Positions 19,496 to 27,979 of a DNA stretch of 58,943 nucleotides are shown one piece after another. Made by a program: the position numbers and the translations under genes. How positions within the stretch are numbered: position 1 is the first letter of the stretch; the number at the start of each line of letters is the position of its first letter. Below the pieces are notes generated by a model, which saw nothing but the letters and a program-made list of their open reading frames with translations, did no database searches and was not told the origin of the DNA. The stretch spans positions 1 to 58,943 of the forward strand of contig CAMBOV010000016.1 in the NCBI GenBank assembly GCA_945869475.1, written 5' to 3'. Source of the DNA: Singulisphaera sp. GP187. Lineage in GTDB: Bacteria; Planctomycetota; Phycisphaerae; Phycisphaerales; SM1A02.

Positions 19496-20323
19496 ATGTT
19501 GAACCTTTCTCATTTTTTCTCGCCGCAGTCGACCCCATTCGCACGGGGACCCTTGCTCATCATCGCCGGGCCATGTGTGCTCGAGAGCGACGCAATCAAC
19601 CTGCAGATCGGCGAAACGCTGCGCGAAGCATGTGCCAAGCATGGTCTTGCATACATCTTCAAAGCGAGTTTCGACAAGGCAAATCGCTCGAGCGTCTCGA
19701 GCCCGCGCGGGCCTGGACTCGAGCGCGGCTGCGACGCGCTCGCACAACTAAAGTCGAAACTCGGCGTGCCTGTCACGACTGATATTCATGAACCGTCGCA
19801 GGCGGCGCGGGCGGCGCAGGCCGTTGACATTCTGCAGATTCCAGCATTTCTCGCTCGGCAAACTGATTTACTGGCCGCTGCTGCTGCAACAGGGTGCGCC
19901 GTCAACGTCAAGAAGGGGCAGTTCATGGCGCCATCCGAGATGACCGGCGCCATCGGCAAGTTGCGCGAAGCTGGTGCGAAAGAAATCATGCTGACTGAGC
20001 GCGGAACATTCTTCGGCTACCACCGACTCGTCAATGATTTTGCCGGCCTCGGCGAGATGCTCGAGATGGGGGTTCCACTCTGCTTCGATGTCACGCATTC
20101 GACGCAGCGTCCTGGCGAAGGAGCAACAAGCGGCGGGCAGCCCATGCGCGCCCCGCTTCTCGCACGCGCTGCCGTTGCGGCGGGAGTTGATGCGATCTTC
20201 TTGGAGTGCCATCCACATCCTGCCGCATCTTTGAGCGACCGCGCGACGATTCAACCGCTCGATCAAATGCCGGCACTGCTGAGCCAACTCGCAGCGATTC
20301 GGCGCGTTGTGGCTGCAACATGA
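19496..20323 (+). CDS. kdsA: 3-deoxy-8-phosphooctulonate synthase (Kdo-8-P synthase)
   Basis: 275 residues. It condenses PEP with arabinose 5-phosphate to give Kdo-8-phosphate, the precursor of the LPS inner-core sugar. Motifs: IIAGPCVLESDAINLQIGE, FKASFDKANRSSVSSPRGPG, VTTDIHEPSQAA, LQIPAFLARQTDLL, VNVKKGQFMAP, LTERGTFFGYHRLVND, FDVTHSTQRPG, and the C-terminal FLECHPHPAASLSD. It heads a plus-strand operon: the stop overlaps the mcsA start by 4 bases. With lpxA/C/D in the window it supports lipid A/Kdo biosynthesis. Confidence 0.97.
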   Translation: MLNLSHFFSPQSTPFARGPLLIIAGPCVLESDAINLQIGETLREACAKHGLAYIFKASFDKANRSSVSSPRGPGLERGCDALAQLKSKLGVPVTTDIHEPSQAARAAQAVDILQIPAFLARQTDLLAAAAATGCAVNVKKGQFMAPSEMTGAIGKLREAGAKEIMLTERGTFFGYHRLVNDFAGLGEMLEMGVPLCFDVTHSTQRPGEGATSGGQPMRAPLLARAAVAAGVDAIFLECHPHPAASLSDRATIQPLDQMPALLSQLAAIRRVVAAT

Positions 20324-20859
20324 AATGCGACATCTGCGACAAGGCGGCGGTTGTGCACGAAACCCTGATTCGAAACGCACTCGCAGTTGAGGTGCACCTC
20401 TGCGCCGAACACGCCATTGCGGCTGGCTATCCACTTCCTATTGAGCAGCCGATCGCCGACATTTTCCCGCAGCTCGGTGAGGTCGCCAAAGTTGAGGGAG
20501 GCATCAGCGGCGGCGTGAGCGCAAGCGTGAGCGTCAGCAAGGGAAAAGAACGCGTCCCTCGCTGTACGGCGTGCGGTCTGACCTATACCGCCTTTCGAAA
20601 GTCAGGCCACTGTGGATGCCCCGCGTGTTACGACGCCTTTTCCCCCGCACTCGATCAAGTCATTGAGCGGGCGCAAGCAGGCGCAACCCATCATGTGGGA
20701 CGCTCACCGACGGGCGATGGTGGGGCGAATGCCGAGCGCCTGCAGGCGATGCGTGCGAAGTTGATGCGCGACCTTGAAAGTGCGATCGCCTCTGAAAACT
20801 ACGAACGAGCGGCGAAAGTGCGTGACGAGTTGCGACTCTTCGACGCACCACCGAGTTGA
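20320..20859 (+). CDS. mcsA: McsA-like zinc and UVR-motif protein, partner of McsB
   Basis: 179 residues from the ATG at 20320, coupled to kdsA by ATGA. Metal-binding pairs: MKCDICDKAAVVHET with LCAEHA near the N terminus, and RCTACGLTYTAFRKSG with CGCPACYDAF in the middle. A Ser/Gly-rich spacer separates them. The C terminus has a UVR motif (LMRDLESAIASENYERAAKV, then RDELR). In Firmicutes McsA activates the arginine kinase McsB and takes part in Clp-dependent turnover. McsB lies 4 bases downstream, so the assignment is firm. Confidence 0.9.
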   Translation: MKCDICDKAAVVHETLIRNALAVEVHLCAEHAIAAGYPLPIEQPIADIFPQLGEVAKVEGGISGGVSASVSVSKGKERVPRCTACGLTYTAFRKSGHCGCPACYDAFSPALDQVIERAQAGATHHVGRSPTGDGGANAERLQAMRAKLMRDLESAIASENYERAAKVRDELRLFDAPPS

Positions 20860-20863
20860 ACCG

Positions 20864-21940
20864 ATGACACCTCCCTTCTCAGCGGCGCTTTCGCAGATCG
20901 GACCCGACTCCGATGTCGTCGTCACGAGCCGAGTGCGACTTGCGAGAAACATTGCGGGATTGCCGTTCGTCGGCCGAGCAAGCAACGCGGTTCGCCTCGA
21001 AGTCATGCGCATCGTGCGCCGTGCCGTCGATCACTCGGCCATCGCACGCGCCAACCGAGAGGGACTTCGCTGGATCGAACTTCAGACCGCTCCATCGCGG
21101 GACCGCATTCTCTTGGCCGAACGTCATCTTGTTTCGCGTCACTTCGCACATAGCGAAGGTCCGCGAGCACTCGCCCTCTCGCACGATGAGCACGCGAGCG
21201 TGATGGTGAATGAAGAGGATCACTTGCGCATCCAATGCCTCTGCGCAGGGAGTGGACTGCATGAAGCGTTCACGGCAGCATTCGAACTCGAGAGCGCCCT
21301 CGCCGACTCAACTCGTTTTTCTTTTCATCCGCGCTGGGGTTACCTCACAGCATGCCCGACCAATGTGGGGTGTGGCATCCGATTGAGTTCGATGCTGCAT
21401 CTTCCGGGCGTGGTGATCATGAAGGAAGCAGATCGAATCAAACGTGCTGCGGCTGATCTGCACCTTGCGGTGCGTGGGTACTACGGCGAAGGCTCTGAAG
21501 CAATCGGCGACTTCTATCAGTTCTCGAATCAGACGACGCTCGGTGCGACCGAAGAGCAATTGCTCGAAGAATTTCACCACGTGATTCTGCCACAGATCAT
21601 CGGCTATGAACGCGAGGCCCGTGCAGCTGCAATGGATCGTCATCGCGCGCGACTCGAAGACTTTGTGCTGCGGTCGAATGCGCTCTTGAATGCAGCACGA
21701 CTGCTCACCGCCGATGAAGCGACCAAACACCTGAGTCGCATTCGGCTCGGATCGGTGCTCGGCATTGTGCGGGTTGAACTCGCCACGATTCAGCGGTTGT
21801 TGCTTCAAGTGCAACCTGCGCATCTCACAGTGGTCGATCCACGCGCGACTGAAGGCGATGAGATTGAGCGCGAGGTGCGCGCCTCGCATGTGCGCGCGGC
21901 ACTGGCGCATCCCGCGCAGCCGCCTGCTCAGACCGAGTGA
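20864..21940 (+). CDS. mcsB: Protein-arginine kinase McsB
   Basis: 358 residues from the ATG at 20864. The guanido-phosphotransferase catalytic domain is recognisable: DVVVTSRVRLARNIAGLPF (phosphate-binding Arg region), VMVNEEDHLRIQCL, TACPTNVGCGIRLSSMLHLP (catalytic Cys), RGYYGEGSEAIGDFYQFSNQ, TTLGATEEQLL. The length and the absence of the creatine-kinase N-terminal domain fit McsB. It phosphorylates arginine on proteins and marks them for ClpCP. No CtsR or ClpC gene is adjacent, so the regulation differs from the Bacillus ctsR-mcsA-mcsB-clpC operon. The stop overlaps the convergent phhB gene by 13 bases. Confidence 0.92.
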   Translation: MTPPFSAALSQIGPDSDVVVTSRVRLARNIAGLPFVGRASNAVRLEVMRIVRRAVDHSAIARANREGLRWIELQTAPSRDRILLAERHLVSRHFAHSEGPRALALSHDEHASVMVNEEDHLRIQCLCAGSGLHEAFTAAFELESALADSTRFSFHPRWGYLTACPTNVGCGIRLSSMLHLPGVVIMKEADRIKRAAADLHLAVRGYYGEGSEAIGDFYQFSNQTTLGATEEQLLEEFHHVILPQIIGYEREARAAAMDRHRARLEDFVLRSNALLNAARLLTADEATKHLSRIRLGSVLGIVRVELATIQRLLLQVQPAHLTVVDPRATEGDEIEREVRASHVRAALAHPAQPPAQTE

Positions 21941-22262: not shown

Positions 22263-23543
22263 GTGTCGATCCCGCTTGAACATCAGTCCCTGCGCCACCT
22301 CGCTCCACGAGTTTCGGTGCTCTCGCTGCAGTCTGGAGAGACGCACGAAACGGTCGCGCGCGTGCTCTGCGAACGATTCGACTTGGATGCGCGAGTGGTC
22401 GCGCACTCCGATCCCGTGCAGGTTGGGATGGCAATCCGCGAGACGCAAGTGCTTGTGCTCGTGGGCGCTCCGACGCGTGAGAATCTGCGCCGACCTGGAA
22501 TCGAAGAGGCGGTCTCGGCGATGATCCCGATCATCGCTCTCTGCAGCGACTTCATCCCTGGGCAAGAGCTTCCAGCGGGAATCTCATTTGCGATCGACCC
22601 CGCACTGGGACCCGACCATCTCGCGACTGCGATTTCAGCGCTCATCGCGCGGCAGCGAGAGGTTTTGCGGCTGCAGTTCGACGCAGTCTCAGCGATGCGT
22701 TTTTCGGGTGGACTCTCAAGCGAGATGGACAACATTCAAGAAGAATTGCAGCTCGCCGCGAATGTGCAGCGCGAATTCTTGCCGCGCATTCTTCCCAGTC
22801 TCGGTGGAGTCGCCTCGGCTGCACTCTGGCGTCCTGCGTCGTATGTCTCGGGAGATATCTACAACGTCATCCGCCTTGATGAACATCACCTCGGCGCCTT
22901 CGTCATCGATGCGGTCGGGCACGGCGTTCCAGCGGCGCTGCTGACGCTGATCATCTCGCGCGGCATTCAGACCAAAGAAATCACCGCAACCTCGTATCGC
23001 ATCTTGGCGCCGAGCGAAACCCTTGCGCGCATCAATACCGACATGCTTTCGCGCGCGGGTCGTACGACGCGCTTCGCGACTGCGATTTACGCCGTCATCG
23101 ATACGCGCAACCACCGAGTGAGCGTCGCGAGTGCGGGCCATCCTGCGCTGCTCCGTATGCGCCCGGGTGGCTCGTTCGAACCGATCGAGACCCATGGTGG
23201 ACTCTTGGGAGTGTTCGAAGATGAGCAATTCAGTGAGCAGTCGTTCGATCTCGAGCTTGGCGACAAACTGCTCTTTTACTCGGATGGATTCGAGCAGGCG
23301 TTCCCAGAGCTCGGACAAGATCCCGGCGCGCCCCGCCTTCCAAATCGCCGGTATCTCGATGTTTTCAACGAGTTTTCTGGCGCAGCCACCCCAGCCGATT
23401 TCATCGCAGGCATCAATGCGCGTCTCGATGAAGAGAGCCAAGAGTTTCCGCAGATCGACGACCTCACGCTGTTGTGTGCGGGATGGATTGACGCCGAATC
23501 GCTTGATCAATCATCCGGGCAAGGGCATCCACCTCAACGTTGA
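22263..23543 (+). CDS. RsbU/SpoIIE-type PP2C phosphatase with receiver-like N-terminal domain
   Basis: 426 residues, GTG start. Residues 1-130 have an alternating beta-alpha pattern (RVSVLSLQSGE, VLVLVGAPTRENLRRPG, MIPIIALCSDF) resembling a response-regulator receiver, but I cannot see an acidic pocket. A coiled-coil linker (EMDNIQEELQLAANVQREFL) leads into the phosphatase: YVSGDIYNVI, FVIDAVGHGVPAALLTLI, ASAGHPALLRM, LLFYSDGFEQAF, DDLTLLCAG. Metal-binding Asp residues are present. It probably dephosphorylates an anti-anti-sigma factor in a partner-switching pathway; no partner is in the window. The last 80 bases overlap the convergent ribE gene. Confidence 0.85.
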   Translation: MSIPLEHQSLRHLAPRVSVLSLQSGETHETVARVLCERFDLDARVVAHSDPVQVGMAIRETQVLVLVGAPTRENLRRPGIEEAVSAMIPIIALCSDFIPGQELPAGISFAIDPALGPDHLATAISALIARQREVLRLQFDAVSAMRFSGGLSSEMDNIQEELQLAANVQREFLPRILPSLGGVASAALWRPASYVSGDIYNVIRLDEHHLGAFVIDAVGHGVPAALLTLIISRGIQTKEITATSYRILAPSETLARINTDMLSRAGRTTRFATAIYAVIDTRNHRVSVASAGHPALLRMRPGGSFEPIETHGGLLGVFEDEQFSEQSFDLELGDKLLFYSDGFEQAFPELGQDPGAPRLPNRRYLDVFNEFSGAATPADFIAGINARLDEESQEFPQIDDLTLLCAGWIDAESLDQSSGQGHPPQR

Positions 23544-24075
23544 GCCGCTGACCGATCGCCGCGTGTGCGAGCGTCGTGCGTGCGAAAGTCTCTGGAATCA
23601 GTGCCACTTCAAACCAGTCGCTGCCTCGGTGTGCGATCGTCAACGACACTCCCTGCAGGGTGATCGATCCCTGAGCAACAACCACGTCAATCGAGGGAGC
23701 ACCGAGTCGCACGCGAAGCAGAAATCCACCTGCGCTTCGATCGATCTGCACGAGTTCGCCGATTGAGTCAACGTGCCCTTGCACGATGTGACCTCCCATC
23801 CGATCTCCCATTCGCATCGCAGGCTCGAGATTGACTTCTTCACCAACGCTGAGCGTGCCGAGTGTCGTCATCGAGAGAGTCTGAGGGATGACATCGGCGC
23901 CGAAGTGGGTGCCAACACACTCGGTGACCGTCAGGCAGACACCATTCACGCTGATCGAATCGCCTGTGCGCACCCCCTCGAGATGTGACCGCGCATCGAC
24001 GGTGAGATGTTCGCCGCGCGTGGTCGTGCACCGCGAGACAACCGAGCCGACGCCATGCACAAGTCCCGTAAACAC
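23464..24075 (-). CDS. ribE: Riboflavin synthase, alpha subunit
   Basis: 203 residues starting MFTGLVHGVGSVVS. Two homologous lumazine-binding barrels: GDSISVNGVCLTVTECV with IPQTLSMTTLGTLSVGEEVN in the first, and GSITLQGVSLTIAHRGSDWF with IPETFARTTLAHAAIGQRLN in the second. MGGHIVQGHVDSIGEL is the linker signature. It dismutates two dimethylribityllumazine molecules to riboflavin. It starts 3 bases after the SpoIID lipoprotein stop, and its 3' end overlaps the convergent phosphatase gene by 80 bases. The last dozen residues (QAIRRQSIPHTTA) are beyond the conserved fold. Confidence 0.96.
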   Translation of the reverse strand: MFTGLVHGVGSVVSRCTTTRGEHLTVDARSHLEGVRTGDSISVNGVCLTVTECVGTHFGADVIPQTLSMTTLGTLSVGEEVNLEPAMRMGDRMGGHIVQGHVDSIGELVQIDRSAGGFLLRVRLGAPSIDVVVAQGSITLQGVSLTIAHRGSDWFEVALIPETFARTTLAHAAIGQRLNVEVDALARMIDQAIRRQSIPHTTA

Positions 24076-24078
24076 TGG

Positions 24079-25530
24079 CTATTTCCACGCTTTCATGATC
24101 ATTGAATCAGGATAGTAACGCGCGAGAATCTGTTGGTACGAACTGCCTTTGCGCGCCATCTCTTGCGCTCCGTGTTGGCAGAGTCCGACGCCGTGACCGA
24201 AGCCCCGTCCGGTGAAGTCGGCATTCTTCGCAGAAATGCTCACCGAAAAATCACTCGAGCGCATGCTTGTCTTCGAGTCGCCCGCGGCGTTCATCGCTCG
24301 CCGAAAATCCTCGGCTTCGATCGTGACGGCACCGCCGCTTCGAGGGCGAAGACGAATCGTCGTTGGGCGCCCTGCCGCGTTCTTGTCTGCAATCTCAATG
24401 GCGATGGGAAGTGCGAGAGTCGCGAGGTCACTTCGTCCGATTCCACGCCCCCAACTCGCGATGCGAGCTTGAATCGTTGCGAGGGCAATCGTCACCTTCC
24501 ACGTCGCGACCGACGCAGACTGACAACACGATGGTCGCGGGGCGCCATCCCCCGCCGAGAGCGGGACGATGTCGTGAAATGGATTGTCTGTGACGACACC
24601 CGAAGCGTTTGCGGCACGCCCGCCACACGCACTCGAGTAGTAGGCGGGCACGACTACGCCATGATCGACCAAGACCTGCCCGCGCGTCTCGCGGACGGCA
24701 GCGACTGCCTTGGCATTGTCCGTCGCGCCGATCCACGCTTGACTCTGTTGCCCCGCGACCATGTCGTAGTGGCGACGACCTTGCCAGCGCGCCGCTTCGA
24801 CCACTGCGTAACTTCGTGCCGCGATCGCTTGGGCGCGAAAGGTCGATTCGTCCCATGATCCGTAGAGTTCTTTCGCGATGACTCCAGGCAGATAGGTTTC
24901 TATCGGCACATCGATTACCACGTCGATCGATTGCGAAGTTCGCACGAGGCGCAAGACTCCCGGCCACTTTTGTTTTTTCAGCGCGAGCAATTCGCTCGAT
25001 CCCTTCGCTGGGCGAATCTCGAGTTCACCGGCGGCGAATGCGCGCGCAGCCTTGCCGCGCGGTGTCACCTTCCAGCCGCCATCCTGCGCACGAATCTCAA
25101 CGGGCGTCGCCGCGATCCATGGAACTTCGCTTTCTGGAGCGGCGAGCGAGGCAATCTCAACCCGACCCGCTGCCGTCTCGACCACGACACGTGCGCCGAT
25201 GGCGAGTTCATCGATTCGAATCGCAACGGTGGGTTCGTGTGTTGGAGGCGTCGGCAGCGGCTTGGGTGGAATCGGCAGCGGACGAGTCGGTTGCGCGATC
25301 TCGGCGGTCGACACAGGATCACTTTCATCCACCGTCGCGGGTGGCGAGCTCTGGCCTGGCGATGTATCACGAGGTGCAATCGCGCGCACTGGCTCTGGCG
25401 GGGTAACTCTCGTCTCACCACCCGCGGGGGCACAACCCGTGACCACCATCGACGCACTGCACGATGCGATGCACAAAGCGACAACCGCGCAGAGGGTGCG
25501 GCGAATGCGGTTGTAGGCGGGGTCTTCCAT
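24079..25530 (-). CDS. SpoIID/LytB-domain lipoprotein
   Basis: 483 residues. A lipobox (MVVTGCAPAGG) follows a hydrophobic leader, so lipid anchoring is likely. A Pro/Thr-rich linker (about residues 40-100) precedes a beta domain, then a SpoIID domain: VDVPIETYLPGVIAKELYGS-like segment, ARSYAVVEAARWQGRRHYDM, and QVLVDHGVVVPAYYSSACGG. The ending is GRGFGHGVGLCQHGAQEMAR with ILARYYP. SpoIID is a lytic transglycosylase acting on stem-free glycan strands. Outside sporulating bacteria such proteins are thought to remodel peptidoglycan. It sits in a minus-strand run between the alphaCTD protein and ribE. Confidence 0.9.
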   Translation of the reverse strand: MEDPAYNRIRRTLCAVVALCIASCSASMVVTGCAPAGGETRVTPPEPVRAIAPRDTSPGQSSPPATVDESDPVSTAEIAQPTRPLPIPPKPLPTPPTHEPTVAIRIDELAIGARVVVETAAGRVEIASLAAPESEVPWIAATPVEIRAQDGGWKVTPRGKAARAFAAGELEIRPAKGSSELLALKKQKWPGVLRLVRTSQSIDVVIDVPIETYLPGVIAKELYGSWDESTFRAQAIAARSYAVVEAARWQGRRHYDMVAGQQSQAWIGATDNAKAVAAVRETRGQVLVDHGVVVPAYYSSACGGRAANASGVVTDNPFHDIVPLSAGDGAPRPSCCQSASVATWKVTIALATIQARIASWGRGIGRSDLATLALPIAIEIADKNAAGRPTTIRLRPRSGGAVTIEAEDFRRAMNAAGDSKTSMRSSDFSVSISAKNADFTGRGFGHGVGLCQHGAQEMARKGSSYQQILARYYPDSMIMKAWK

Positions 25531-25569: not shown

Positions 25570-26478
25570 TTACTCGAGCACGCGAAGCGCGAGACCGTGA
25601 AGCACGAGCTGTGCCTTGATCTCATCGAGGCTTGTCATGCCAAAGTTCTTGATGCCCATGAGCTCGGCTTCGGTACGACAGGCGAGTTCGCCAAGCGTCC
25701 GAACTTCAAGCAACTGGATCGCCTTGCGGGCGCGAATCGTCAGTTCAATCGCACTGATTGGCTTGTCGAGAACGTCGGATCCCGTCGTGGTGCGAAGTGT
25801 TGTGAGATACTCGAGACGGTACGACTCTTCGAAGCCGCCCTCGAGCCCTTGACCCAGTCGCAGACCGCGCGAGTTCAACATCGCCTTGATCTCGTTGATG
25901 CTGGTTTCGCCGAAGTTCTTGAACGCCATCAACTCAGCTTCAGTCACGCGAAGCAGATCGCCCAGCGTGCGAATCTCAACCTTCTTGAGGCAGTTGCGGG
26001 CGCGTGCGGAGAGTTCGAAATCGGTGATCGGTGTGTCGAGCACGGCATTGCGACGAGCGGCTTGTTGCTCGGCATTCGCGTCGTATGACATCGTCTGCAC
26101 TGCGCAGACATCCTTCACATACATGCGCGCATGCGGATTGGTTGGATAGAGGTCGAGCACGCGGCGCAGGCAGCGCTCGGCACGATCGAGTTCACCAAGA
26201 TCTTCATAGAGCACCGCGAGATTGATCAGCGCATTCACGGGCGGCGTTGGCAGGTAGCAAATCTCTTCGTAGAGATCGATCGACTCATCATCATGGCCCA
26301 TCCGGTCGAGCAAGCGCGCGAGCGCGAAAAGTGTTTCGACGCTGCGGTCGGCCTCGAGGGCAAGGTTGTAGGCGGCAACGGCCTCGTCGCGCCGTCCCTC
26401 TGCGGCATGTCGAGTCGCAAGGTCAATGTGTGGTTTCGCGGCAGTTGGATTGGATGGATTCGTCGTGGCAGTACTCAT
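25570..26478 (-). CDS. TPR protein with two RNA polymerase alpha C-terminal domains
   Basis: 302 residues. Residues 15-120 form tetratricopeptide-like helix pairs (DEAVAAYNLALEADRSVETL, INLAVLYEDLGELDRAERCL). Two copies of the RNA polymerase alphaCTD follow: residues 149-210 (PITDFELSARARNCLKKVEI, AFKNFGETSINEIKAMLNSR) and 239-300 (PISAIELTIRARKAIQLLEV, GIKNFGMTSLDEIKAQL). Copy 1 keeps the Arg, Asn and Cys that match E. coli R265, N268 and C269 and the FG..S loop. Copy 2 keeps the Arg but has Lys-Ala instead of Asn-Cys. There is no alpha N-terminal domain, so this is not RpoA itself. DNA or polymerase binding is inferred. Confidence 0.85.
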   Translation of the reverse strand: MSTATTNPSNPTAAKPHIDLATRHAAEGRRDEAVAAYNLALEADRSVETLFALARLLDRMGHDDESIDLYEEICYLPTPPVNALINLAVLYEDLGELDRAERCLRRVLDLYPTNPHARMYVKDVCAVQTMSYDANAEQQAARRNAVLDTPITDFELSARARNCLKKVEIRTLGDLLRVTEAELMAFKNFGETSINEIKAMLNSRGLRLGQGLEGGFEESYRLEYLTTLRTTTGSDVLDKPISAIELTIRARKAIQLLEVRTLGELACRTEAELMGIKNFGMTSLDEIKAQLVLHGLALRVLE

Positions 26479-26539: not shown

Positions 26540-27979
26540 TCACTTCGGCGAGGCGTGCCGGATCAACTGATGGGTGCGCCAGGGACCGCGTTCGAATCGC
26601 CACGCCATCGAACCTCCAATTGCGATGATGTAGATGGTCGATCCAATCCATGGACCGAGCGACCCGAGTTCAGGAAACGCGTTGGCGATCCACCACCCAC
26701 CGCCGACGATGACGACCCAACTCAACGTGACGACGATGATGCCTGGCCACAGTGTGTCGCCTGCTCCGCGCAGAGCGCCCGTGTAAATGATTCCAACGGC
26801 ATCGAAGGCTTGAAAGATCGCCGCGCAGATCATGATGCGGCTCGCGATCTCGACGACCTGGTCAGCTGACGCCGCTCCCACTTCGGCCGGGTTGGTGAAG
26901 AGACGAACCATCGGCTCTCGAAAGACCACCATCAATACAGCCCACGCGGACATGTAGAGCACGGACATCCACACGGCGGTGCGTGCATATCGCGCCGCAA
27001 GTTCGGGCTGCTTCGCGCCGATCGATCGACCAACGAGCGTCGCTGTTGCGATGCTGAATCCAACGGCGGGCATGAACGAGAGATGCATGTAGCGCAGAAC
27101 GATCCATCCTGCAGCAAGATGTGCGGTGCCAAATGTTCCAACGAGCACCGTCATGAAGACCGACCAACAGAACATCTCGTTTCCGAATTGAAGACTCGCG
27201 GGCCATCCGACACGAATGAGATCTTTGATCGCCGCGCGCGATGGGCGCCAGAGCGTGCGCGTCGAATAGGTGCGTGCCATCGTGGGGCCGAGAAAGACGC
27301 ACAGTGGGATCGCACACTCGACGGCTGTCCCGATGACGGTCGCGAGTGCTGAACCTGCAACTCCCATGGCTGGAATGCCAGGGATTCCAGGCAATCCATG
27401 GTCGGGCAGCCCTGCGGCGCCGAAGATGAAAACGTAGTTCAAGACGAGATTGACAATGTTTCCGACAATCGCTGCGAGAGTCACAATCTTTGGTCTGCCG
27501 ATTCCGAAGAAGAAGTTGCTCACAGCCTTTCCAACGAGCGTGACGCATCCACCCGCCATCAAGATCTGCGCATACTGCACTTCCATCGCTTGCATCGCCG
27601 GTGGGTGATCCATCCATGAAAATGCCCACGGAAGAGCGAAAAAGCCGATGGGCACAAGCACCACGAGCCACGAACCGAGCGCGAGCCAGATGCCAGCCCA
27701 CGCGTAGCGCGCGACGGCTGCCGTTTCGCCAGCACCAACGCTCTGTGCGACGAATGTGTTGACGAGTGTGATCGCGCCGACGAGGAATGCCATGACGGTC
27801 CACGTCCAGACGCCTCCGTTGCCCTGCGCGGCAAGTTCGACTGCACCGATTTGCGCAACCATCACGCTGTCGACGAATTGCATCGTCGTGTAACTCATCA
27901 TCGTGATGACGGTCGGCCACGCGAGCGACCAGACCTCTGCCGCGGAGCGGACCGCGGCTTTGACGGATTGGATTGGCAT
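26540..27979 (-). CDS. MATE-family multidrug/cation antiporter
   Basis: 479 residues with about twelve hydrophobic segments in two homologous halves. Family features: PTVITMMSYTTMQFVDSVMV in helix 1, TLVNTFVAQSVGAGE, VNLVLNYVFIFGAAGLPDHG, VGFSIATATLVGRSIGAKQP (second-half VGQxxGA-type motif) and GALRGAGDTLWPGIIVVTLS. MATE proteins export cationic drugs or metabolites using H+ or Na+ gradients; the substrate is unknown. It starts 89 bases after the nuoG stop, across a 13-bp inverted repeat. Confidence 0.93.
   Translation of the reverse strand: MPIQSVKAAVRSAAEVWSLAWPTVITMMSYTTMQFVDSVMVAQIGAVELAAQGNGGVWTWTVMAFLVGAITLVNTFVAQSVGAGETAAVARYAWAGIWLALGSWLVVLVPIGFFALPWAFSWMDHPPAMQAMEVQYAQILMAGGCVTLVGKAVSNFFFGIGRPKIVTLAAIVGNIVNLVLNYVFIFGAAGLPDHGLPGIPGIPAMGVAGSALATVIGTAVECAIPLCVFLGPTMARTYSTRTLWRPSRAAIKDLIRVGWPASLQFGNEMFCWSVFMTVLVGTFGTAHLAAGWIVLRYMHLSFMPAVGFSIATATLVGRSIGAKQPELAARYARTAVWMSVLYMSAWAVLMVVFREPMVRLFTNPAEVGAASADQVVEIASRIMICAAIFQAFDAVGIIYTGALRGAGDTLWPGIIVVTLSWVVIVGGGWWIANAFPELGSLGPWIGSTIYIIAIGGSMAWRFERGPWRTHQLIRHASPK

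Follow-up and report, generated by a model that had tools for sequence, protein, structure and literature searches.

The C-terminal domain of the RNA polymerase alpha subunit (alphaCTD) is ordinarily tethered to the polymerase core. The locus described here raises the question of what two such domains do in a separate protein, joined to tetratricopeptide repeats (TPR). It lies in a stretch of 58,943 nucleotides from Singulisphaera sp. GP187 (contig CAMBOV010000016.1), hereafter the window. The following features are present at the locus:

26540..27979, reverse strand: upstream neighbour, MATE efflux protein, ending 61 bp before the open reading frame
25570..26478, reverse strand: whole open reading frame of the TPR-alphaCTD-alphaCTD protein, 302 amino acids (ORF call, Pfam)
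26095..26448, reverse strand: TPR module, amino acids 11-128, three helix pairs and a capping helix (Pfam TPR_2 and others, AlphaFold, Foldseek)
25852..26052, reverse strand: alphaCTD copy 1, amino acids 143-209 (Pfam, alignment, fold)
25783..25851, reverse strand: inter-CTD linker, amino acids 210-232, little conserved (mean entropy 3.19 bits)
25579..25782, reverse strand: alphaCTD copy 2, amino acids 233-300 (Pfam, alignment)
24079..25530, reverse strand: downstream neighbour, SpoIID-domain protein, starting 39 bp after the open reading frame
23464..24075, reverse strand: next gene, with two lumazine-binding domains (riboflavin synthase alpha type), 3 bp past the SpoIID gene

Domain composition and predicted structure

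Pfam returns three TPRs followed by two alphaCTDs. RNA_pol_A_CTD (PF03118) matches the window protein with 131.2 bits (E 1.1e-38, cut-off 23.8), and the genome-level search resolves two stretches of 79.4 and 58 bits against the same cut-off, so that the alphaCTD feature of RpoA is present. Several Pfam TPR models score above their cut-offs over residues ~15-120, with the tandem 34-residue helix pairs of a TPR. The initial annotation had described the reading frame as a TPR protein with two alphaCTD copies and no alpha N-terminal domain; the exact frame on the reverse strand, the double PF03118 match and the TPR models bear out the first part, and no alpha N-terminal domain occurs among the 18 Pfam families found at E ≤ 1. 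The NCBIfam equivalogs of RpoA reach only 78-122 bits against cut-offs of 228-523, which places the protein outside RpoA. A complete RpoA of 337 amino acids (PF01193, PF01000 and one PF03118) is encoded separately on contig C9 of the same genome and provides its sole other PF03118 match. Between the two copies identity is 54%, and towards the CTD of this RpoA it is 42% for copy 1 and 38% for copy 2; both likenesses are far above chance. The alpha N-terminal domain serves RpoA dimerisation and core assembly. Lacking it, the window protein cannot join the polymerase core as RpoA does.

AlphaFold, run on 12 sequences, gives a mean pLDDT of 76 and a pTM of 0.47 (0.48 for the CTD tandem alone); the modules thus appear to be modelled fairly confidently, with their mutual placement unsettled. 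Predicted TPR helices extend from H11-26 to H115-129, and a further helix is placed in the inter-CTD linker. The top Foldseek match of the TPR part is the designed TPR 1na0 (TMt 0.84). Copy 1, compared over model residues 9-85, superimposes on the E. coli alphaCTD 4mex_A (Z 12.9, rmsd 1.2, 72 aligned) and also fits the DNA-bound alphaCTDs 9zum_A (Z 12.6) and 3n97_C (Z 11.8) as well as 1lb2. A BFVD search recovers TPR proteins along with some alphaCTD proteins of phages; among the 50 matches listed none is described with both.

Conservation of the DNA-contact residues

The contact set comprises R265, N268, C269, G296, S299 and E302 (E. coli numbering throughout), and the acidic positions 259 and 261 of the E. 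coli alphaCTD contact sigma. According to excerpts of PMC11434276, R265 and N268 of the E. coli domain touch the DNA backbone and minor groove, and certain N268 substitutions eliminate UP-element activation. In the window protein, copy 1 possesses R159, N162, C163, N188, G190, S193 and E196 at positions 265, 268, 269, 294, 296, 299 and 302, and hence the complete set. Copy 2 has R249, K252 and A253 at positions 265, 268 and 269, without N268 and C269. The earlier statement that copy 1 keeps Arg, Asn and Cys and copy 2, of these three, Arg alone is therefore correct; it overlooked the residues at 294, 296, 299 and 302, which copy 1 and copy 2 alike retain.

The same pattern emerges from 103 proteins, distinct by their last 150 residues, taken from 131 loci chosen for a match to the protein or its profile. 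In copy 1 the residues are R265 (99%), N268 (94%), C269 (93%), N294 (99%), G296 (99%), S299 (98%) and E302 (100%), so that the alignment to alphaCTD suggested by the initial annotation finds its contact set kept in 93-100% of the proteins. Copy 2 retains R265 (100%), N294 (96%), G296 (96%), S299 (94%) and E302 (99%), with Lys (58%) or Arg (28%) at position 268 and Ala (50%) or Cys (41%) at 269; it is mostly without N268 and often without C269. This consistent difference at 268/269 means that the two CTDs most likely make different contacts. K298 is absent from both copies; Thr occupies the position in 86% of copies 1, just as it commonly does in planctomycete RpoA (94% of 31). Copy 1 deviates from N268/C269 in 8 of the 103 proteins, several of them from the window's own order. 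Four loci of one family in that order (L073, L119, L120 and L022) carry T-A and not N-C at these positions in copy 1, and the roles of the two copies may have shifted there.

Conservation within the protein peaks in CTD1: positions conserved at ≥90% number 29 of 67 there, 14 of 68 in CTD2 and 14 of 114 across the TPR module. An M-x-x-D stretch lies directly before CTD1 at residues 130-133 (M130 83%, D133 87%). Across 18 matched genomes, copy 1 averages a pairwise identity of 0.672, the RpoA CTD 0.580 and copy 2 0.464, with RpoA represented by the best-scoring PF03118 matches (the window's own excepted), a choice whose bias, if any, favours RpoA. Copy 1 exceeds the RpoA CTD in 120 of 153 genome pairs, copy 2 in 28.

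These residues bear on whether the protein reads DNA at all. A nucleic-acid adaptor beyond transcription initiation, bound to RNA or the ribosome or working with elongation factors, would use the alphaCTD fold as a mere binding module, and the Lys or Arg that copy 2 usually carries at 268 would suit it. The joint retention of N268, C269, N294, S299 and E302 in copy 1 points instead to a DNA-reading surface, and we regard such an adaptor as very unlikely. DNA binding by the window protein, a surer step than any action at promoters, seems to us highly probable. The initial interpretation holds in part. Its two putative DNA-binding alphaCTD modules on a TPR platform are well supported by sequence, by the fold of copy 1 and by the contact residues that the phylum keeps in copy 1, together with Arg265 in copy 2.

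Occurrence in Planctomycetota and other phyla

A profile of the window protein, built from 16 members of the order and applied with up to 12 candidates scored per genome, finds one match each at E ≤ 1e-25 in 192 of 196 Planctomycetota genomes (those at least 85% complete), spanning 141 of 142 genera. Of the four genomes missed, two hold fragments at contig ends, namely a partial copy 1 together with copy 2 right where a contig begins (G143) and a copy 2 fragment (G168). The other two show no trace of the protein: in G048 (90% complete) the only CTD is incomplete and gets its highest score as RpoA, and G122 (88% complete) contains RpoA's CTD and a weak single CTD of 30 bits only. This lack reflects loss or an assembly gap, and the protein may accordingly be dispensable. 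Among 20 relatives searched, 19 possess a full-length homologue of 48-86% identity; the exception, G009, is a 70% complete genome from the genus of the window. Of 14 matching loci, 11 cover the whole protein; their titles name Phycisphaerales, other planctomycetes or uncultured bacteria, and Lake Baikal is the source of three.

PF03118 matches are present in all 196 genomes, exactly three in 165 of them, as expected from one RpoA CTD plus two; seven genomes have fewer. More than three occur in 24 genomes, with six each in, for example, G036, G070 and G170, which indicates that additional alphaCTD proteins occur in Planctomycetota.

Outside Planctomycetota, 150 genomes from the same phylum as a gammaproteobacterium (up to 15 candidates per genome) contain no full-length match, the best scoring 69 bits within the CTD part, as RpoA would give. 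No match at E ≤ 1e-20 was detected in 59 genomes sharing a phylum with a cyanobacterium (up to 40 candidates per genome). The 192 of 196 matches obtained with the same profile serve as positive control for both searches.

The initial annotation had offered, besides a bridge, a mimic that competes for UP elements or activators. Such a negative regulator would fill UP elements or activator surfaces with its free alphaCTDs and exclude those of RNA polymerase itself, and DNA-contact residues like those of RpoA do imply overlapping sites. A protein kept as a single copy in nearly all genomes would, however, need to blunt UP elements everywhere, and the neighbourhoods examined are of a housekeeping type. 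The competitor finds no specific support, the single match per genome fits a housekeeping factor better, and we consider negative regulation decidedly unlikely.

Family anatomy and origin of the two copies

The CTD count is two in every one of the 103 proteins and one in each of the 31 RpoA sequences. The CTDs are spaced by 12-41 residues (median 20). The open frame before CTD1, an upper bound as starts were not set, has a median of 308 residues outside the window's order (78 proteins) against 182 inside it (25 proteins). Pfam finds TPRs and two CTD stretches in each of five members from five other families. A recent local fusion or an assembly artefact is ruled out by the 19 relatives, the 192 genomes and the uniform two-CTD composition.

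In a tree of the domains of 28 of the 103 proteins, 22 of the 31 RpoA CTDs and the E. coli domain (79 rows and 65 columns, hence weak), copy 1 forms one clade (SH-aLRT 95) and copy 2 requires two changes, which suggests a duplication older than the spread of Planctomycetota. Given the separation of the copies in this weak tree, a recent tandem duplication is unlikely.

A mobile or phage origin was rejected, as none of the matching plasmid (39) or phage (6) records covers 80% of the query. The plasmid matches comprise ~180 bases, or ~60 codons, of a CTD each in the 20 of 39 listed; 13 of these 20 carry the annotation RNA polymerase subunit alpha, and 21 of the 39 derive from Streptomyces. Ten IMG/VR viral loci (L103-L112) have frames of 75-320 amino acids, none with the whole architecture, and each frame holds one CTD-like match, split in L112. 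The frame of L110 appears by eye to fuse an XRE-like helix-turn-helix region to an alphaCTD.

Genomic context

Gene neighbourhoods were compared in 81 loci, 80 from Planctomycetota plus the window, with a simple gene caller and with neighbours identified by Pfam on one member per cluster. The next downstream gene on the same strand belongs to the ruvA cluster in 43 loci and the second in 3; in 4 of the 22 loci with an "other" next gene, ruvA is present and masked by the gene caller, which raises the count to ~50 of 81. The remaining next genes include SpoIID in 8 loci (the window among them) and queH in 3, and tgt is next or second in 2. Five loci (L142, L143, L144, L157 and L191) retain a run with ruvA-ruvB-queH-SpoIID-tgt, and in L144 ruvC lies between the TPR-alphaCTD gene and ruvA. 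The apparent ancestral order from these five loci is TPR-alphaCTD, (ruvC), ruvA, ruvB, queH, SpoIID, tgt, yajC; the SpoIID neighbour of the window thus belongs to a neighbourhood that recurs across Planctomycetota.

Elsewhere in the window, positions 20206-21940 (forward strand) encode a UvrB/UvrC-motif protein followed by an ATP:guanido phosphotransferase-domain protein according to Pfam, a pair that we take to resemble the McsA-McsB protein arginine kinase. A SpoIIE-type PP2C phosphatase domain is encoded at 22263-23543 (forward strand).

This context gives rise to the main rival of a promoter role, an accessory function in RuvCAB recombination and repair, in which the alphaCTD or helix-hairpin-helix-like domains would attach to DNA that is branched or damaged, with the TPRs as docking sites for RuvA, RuvB or RuvC. 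It draws on ruvA lying next to the gene or one gene further in 46-50 of the 81 loci, on the intervening ruvC and the five conserved runs, and on RuvA being a helix-hairpin-helix protein too, according to Pfam. The adjacency is weak evidence, because the cluster also includes genes other than recombination genes (queH, tgt and yajC). Moreover, the window's genome has its lone RuvA_N match on another contig (C13) and yet retains the TPR-alphaCTD gene, and the conserved face of the protein is the promoter-type 265 set. A RuvCAB-linked role is therefore judged unlikely. Against the promoter role counts the observation that polymerase genes are not among the recurrent neighbours (ruvA, ruvB, queH, SpoIID, tgt, yajC) in the neighbourhoods examined.

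Comparison with known proteins

The window protein resembles RpoA in the sequence family PF03118, in the fold of copy 1 and in the 265-type contact residues, most complete in copy 1, and differs from it by the missing alpha N-terminal domain, the two tandem CTDs and the TPR fusion. AlphaCTD-like domains outside complete RpoA are already known, in NCBIfam PRK07758 (95 positions), the BREX kinase PglW, and Streptomyces plasmid and phage proteins. These contain one such domain (a single match in nine of the ten phage loci) or another host protein, and none of those compared combines TPR with two CTDs or has a phylum-wide spread.

AfsR and the large SARP activators of Streptomyces, as described in parts of PMC10936776, are TPR-bearing transcription factors that work with alphaCTD at promoters. 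AfsR contacts the alphaCTD of RpoA, whereas the window protein bears alphaCTDs itself, and neither a SARP (OmpR-type DNA-binding plus BTA) nor a NOD domain is found among its Pfam matches at E ≤ 1. Francisella likewise has a second alphaCTD-bearing gene per genome, although its alpha1 and alpha2 are complete RpoA paralogues and together make up the alpha heterodimer of the polymerase (excerpts of PMC3294249).

A TPR protein with two alphaCTDs as a phylum-wide single-copy component was not found described in the open-access literature searched, including the available portions of PMC12283558, PMC13374769, PMC2859248, PMC11434276, PMC8567305, PMC12316311 and PMC10936776. A transposon essentiality map is available for the genetically tractable Planctopirus limnophila (PMC10632474); "tetratricopeptide" and "TPR" are absent from the main text of that paper.

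A probable trans-acting alphaCTD of Planctomycetota

On balance, and reasoning from sequence, the window protein is probably a trans-acting alphaCTD of Planctomycetota, a promoter-acting, DNA-binding factor with a TPR-held partner. Copy 1 would bind the A/T-rich minor groove upstream of promoters, like the alphaCTD of RpoA, and may contact sigma region 4 through its acidic positions, which are kept as D259 in 96% and E261 in 90% of the 103 proteins and make the bridge to polymerase suggested by the initial annotation plausible. Copy 2 could supply a second, differently tuned contact with DNA or protein, and the TPR module may hold a partner, with polymerase, a sigma factor and a regulator as candidates. 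The detached extra alphaCTD pair would thereby help to select or strengthen promoters.

A bolder version, which we put forward tentatively and think possible though not probable, is a quasi-subunit of RNA polymerase that acts in trans and defines the phylum: its detached double alphaCTD would read UP-type DNA beside that of RpoA, giving up to four alphaCTDs per promoter, and its TPR arm would recruit a partner.

Nearly every sampled Planctomycetota genome keeps this untethered, duplicated second alphaCTD as a single-copy protein, and in the 18 matched genomes its copy 1 shows higher conservation than the alphaCTD of the polymerase itself. A direct test becomes possible in Planctopirus limnophila. 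If the protein acts at promoters, basal transcription in Planctomycetota would gain a component that went undetected in the two other phyla sampled.
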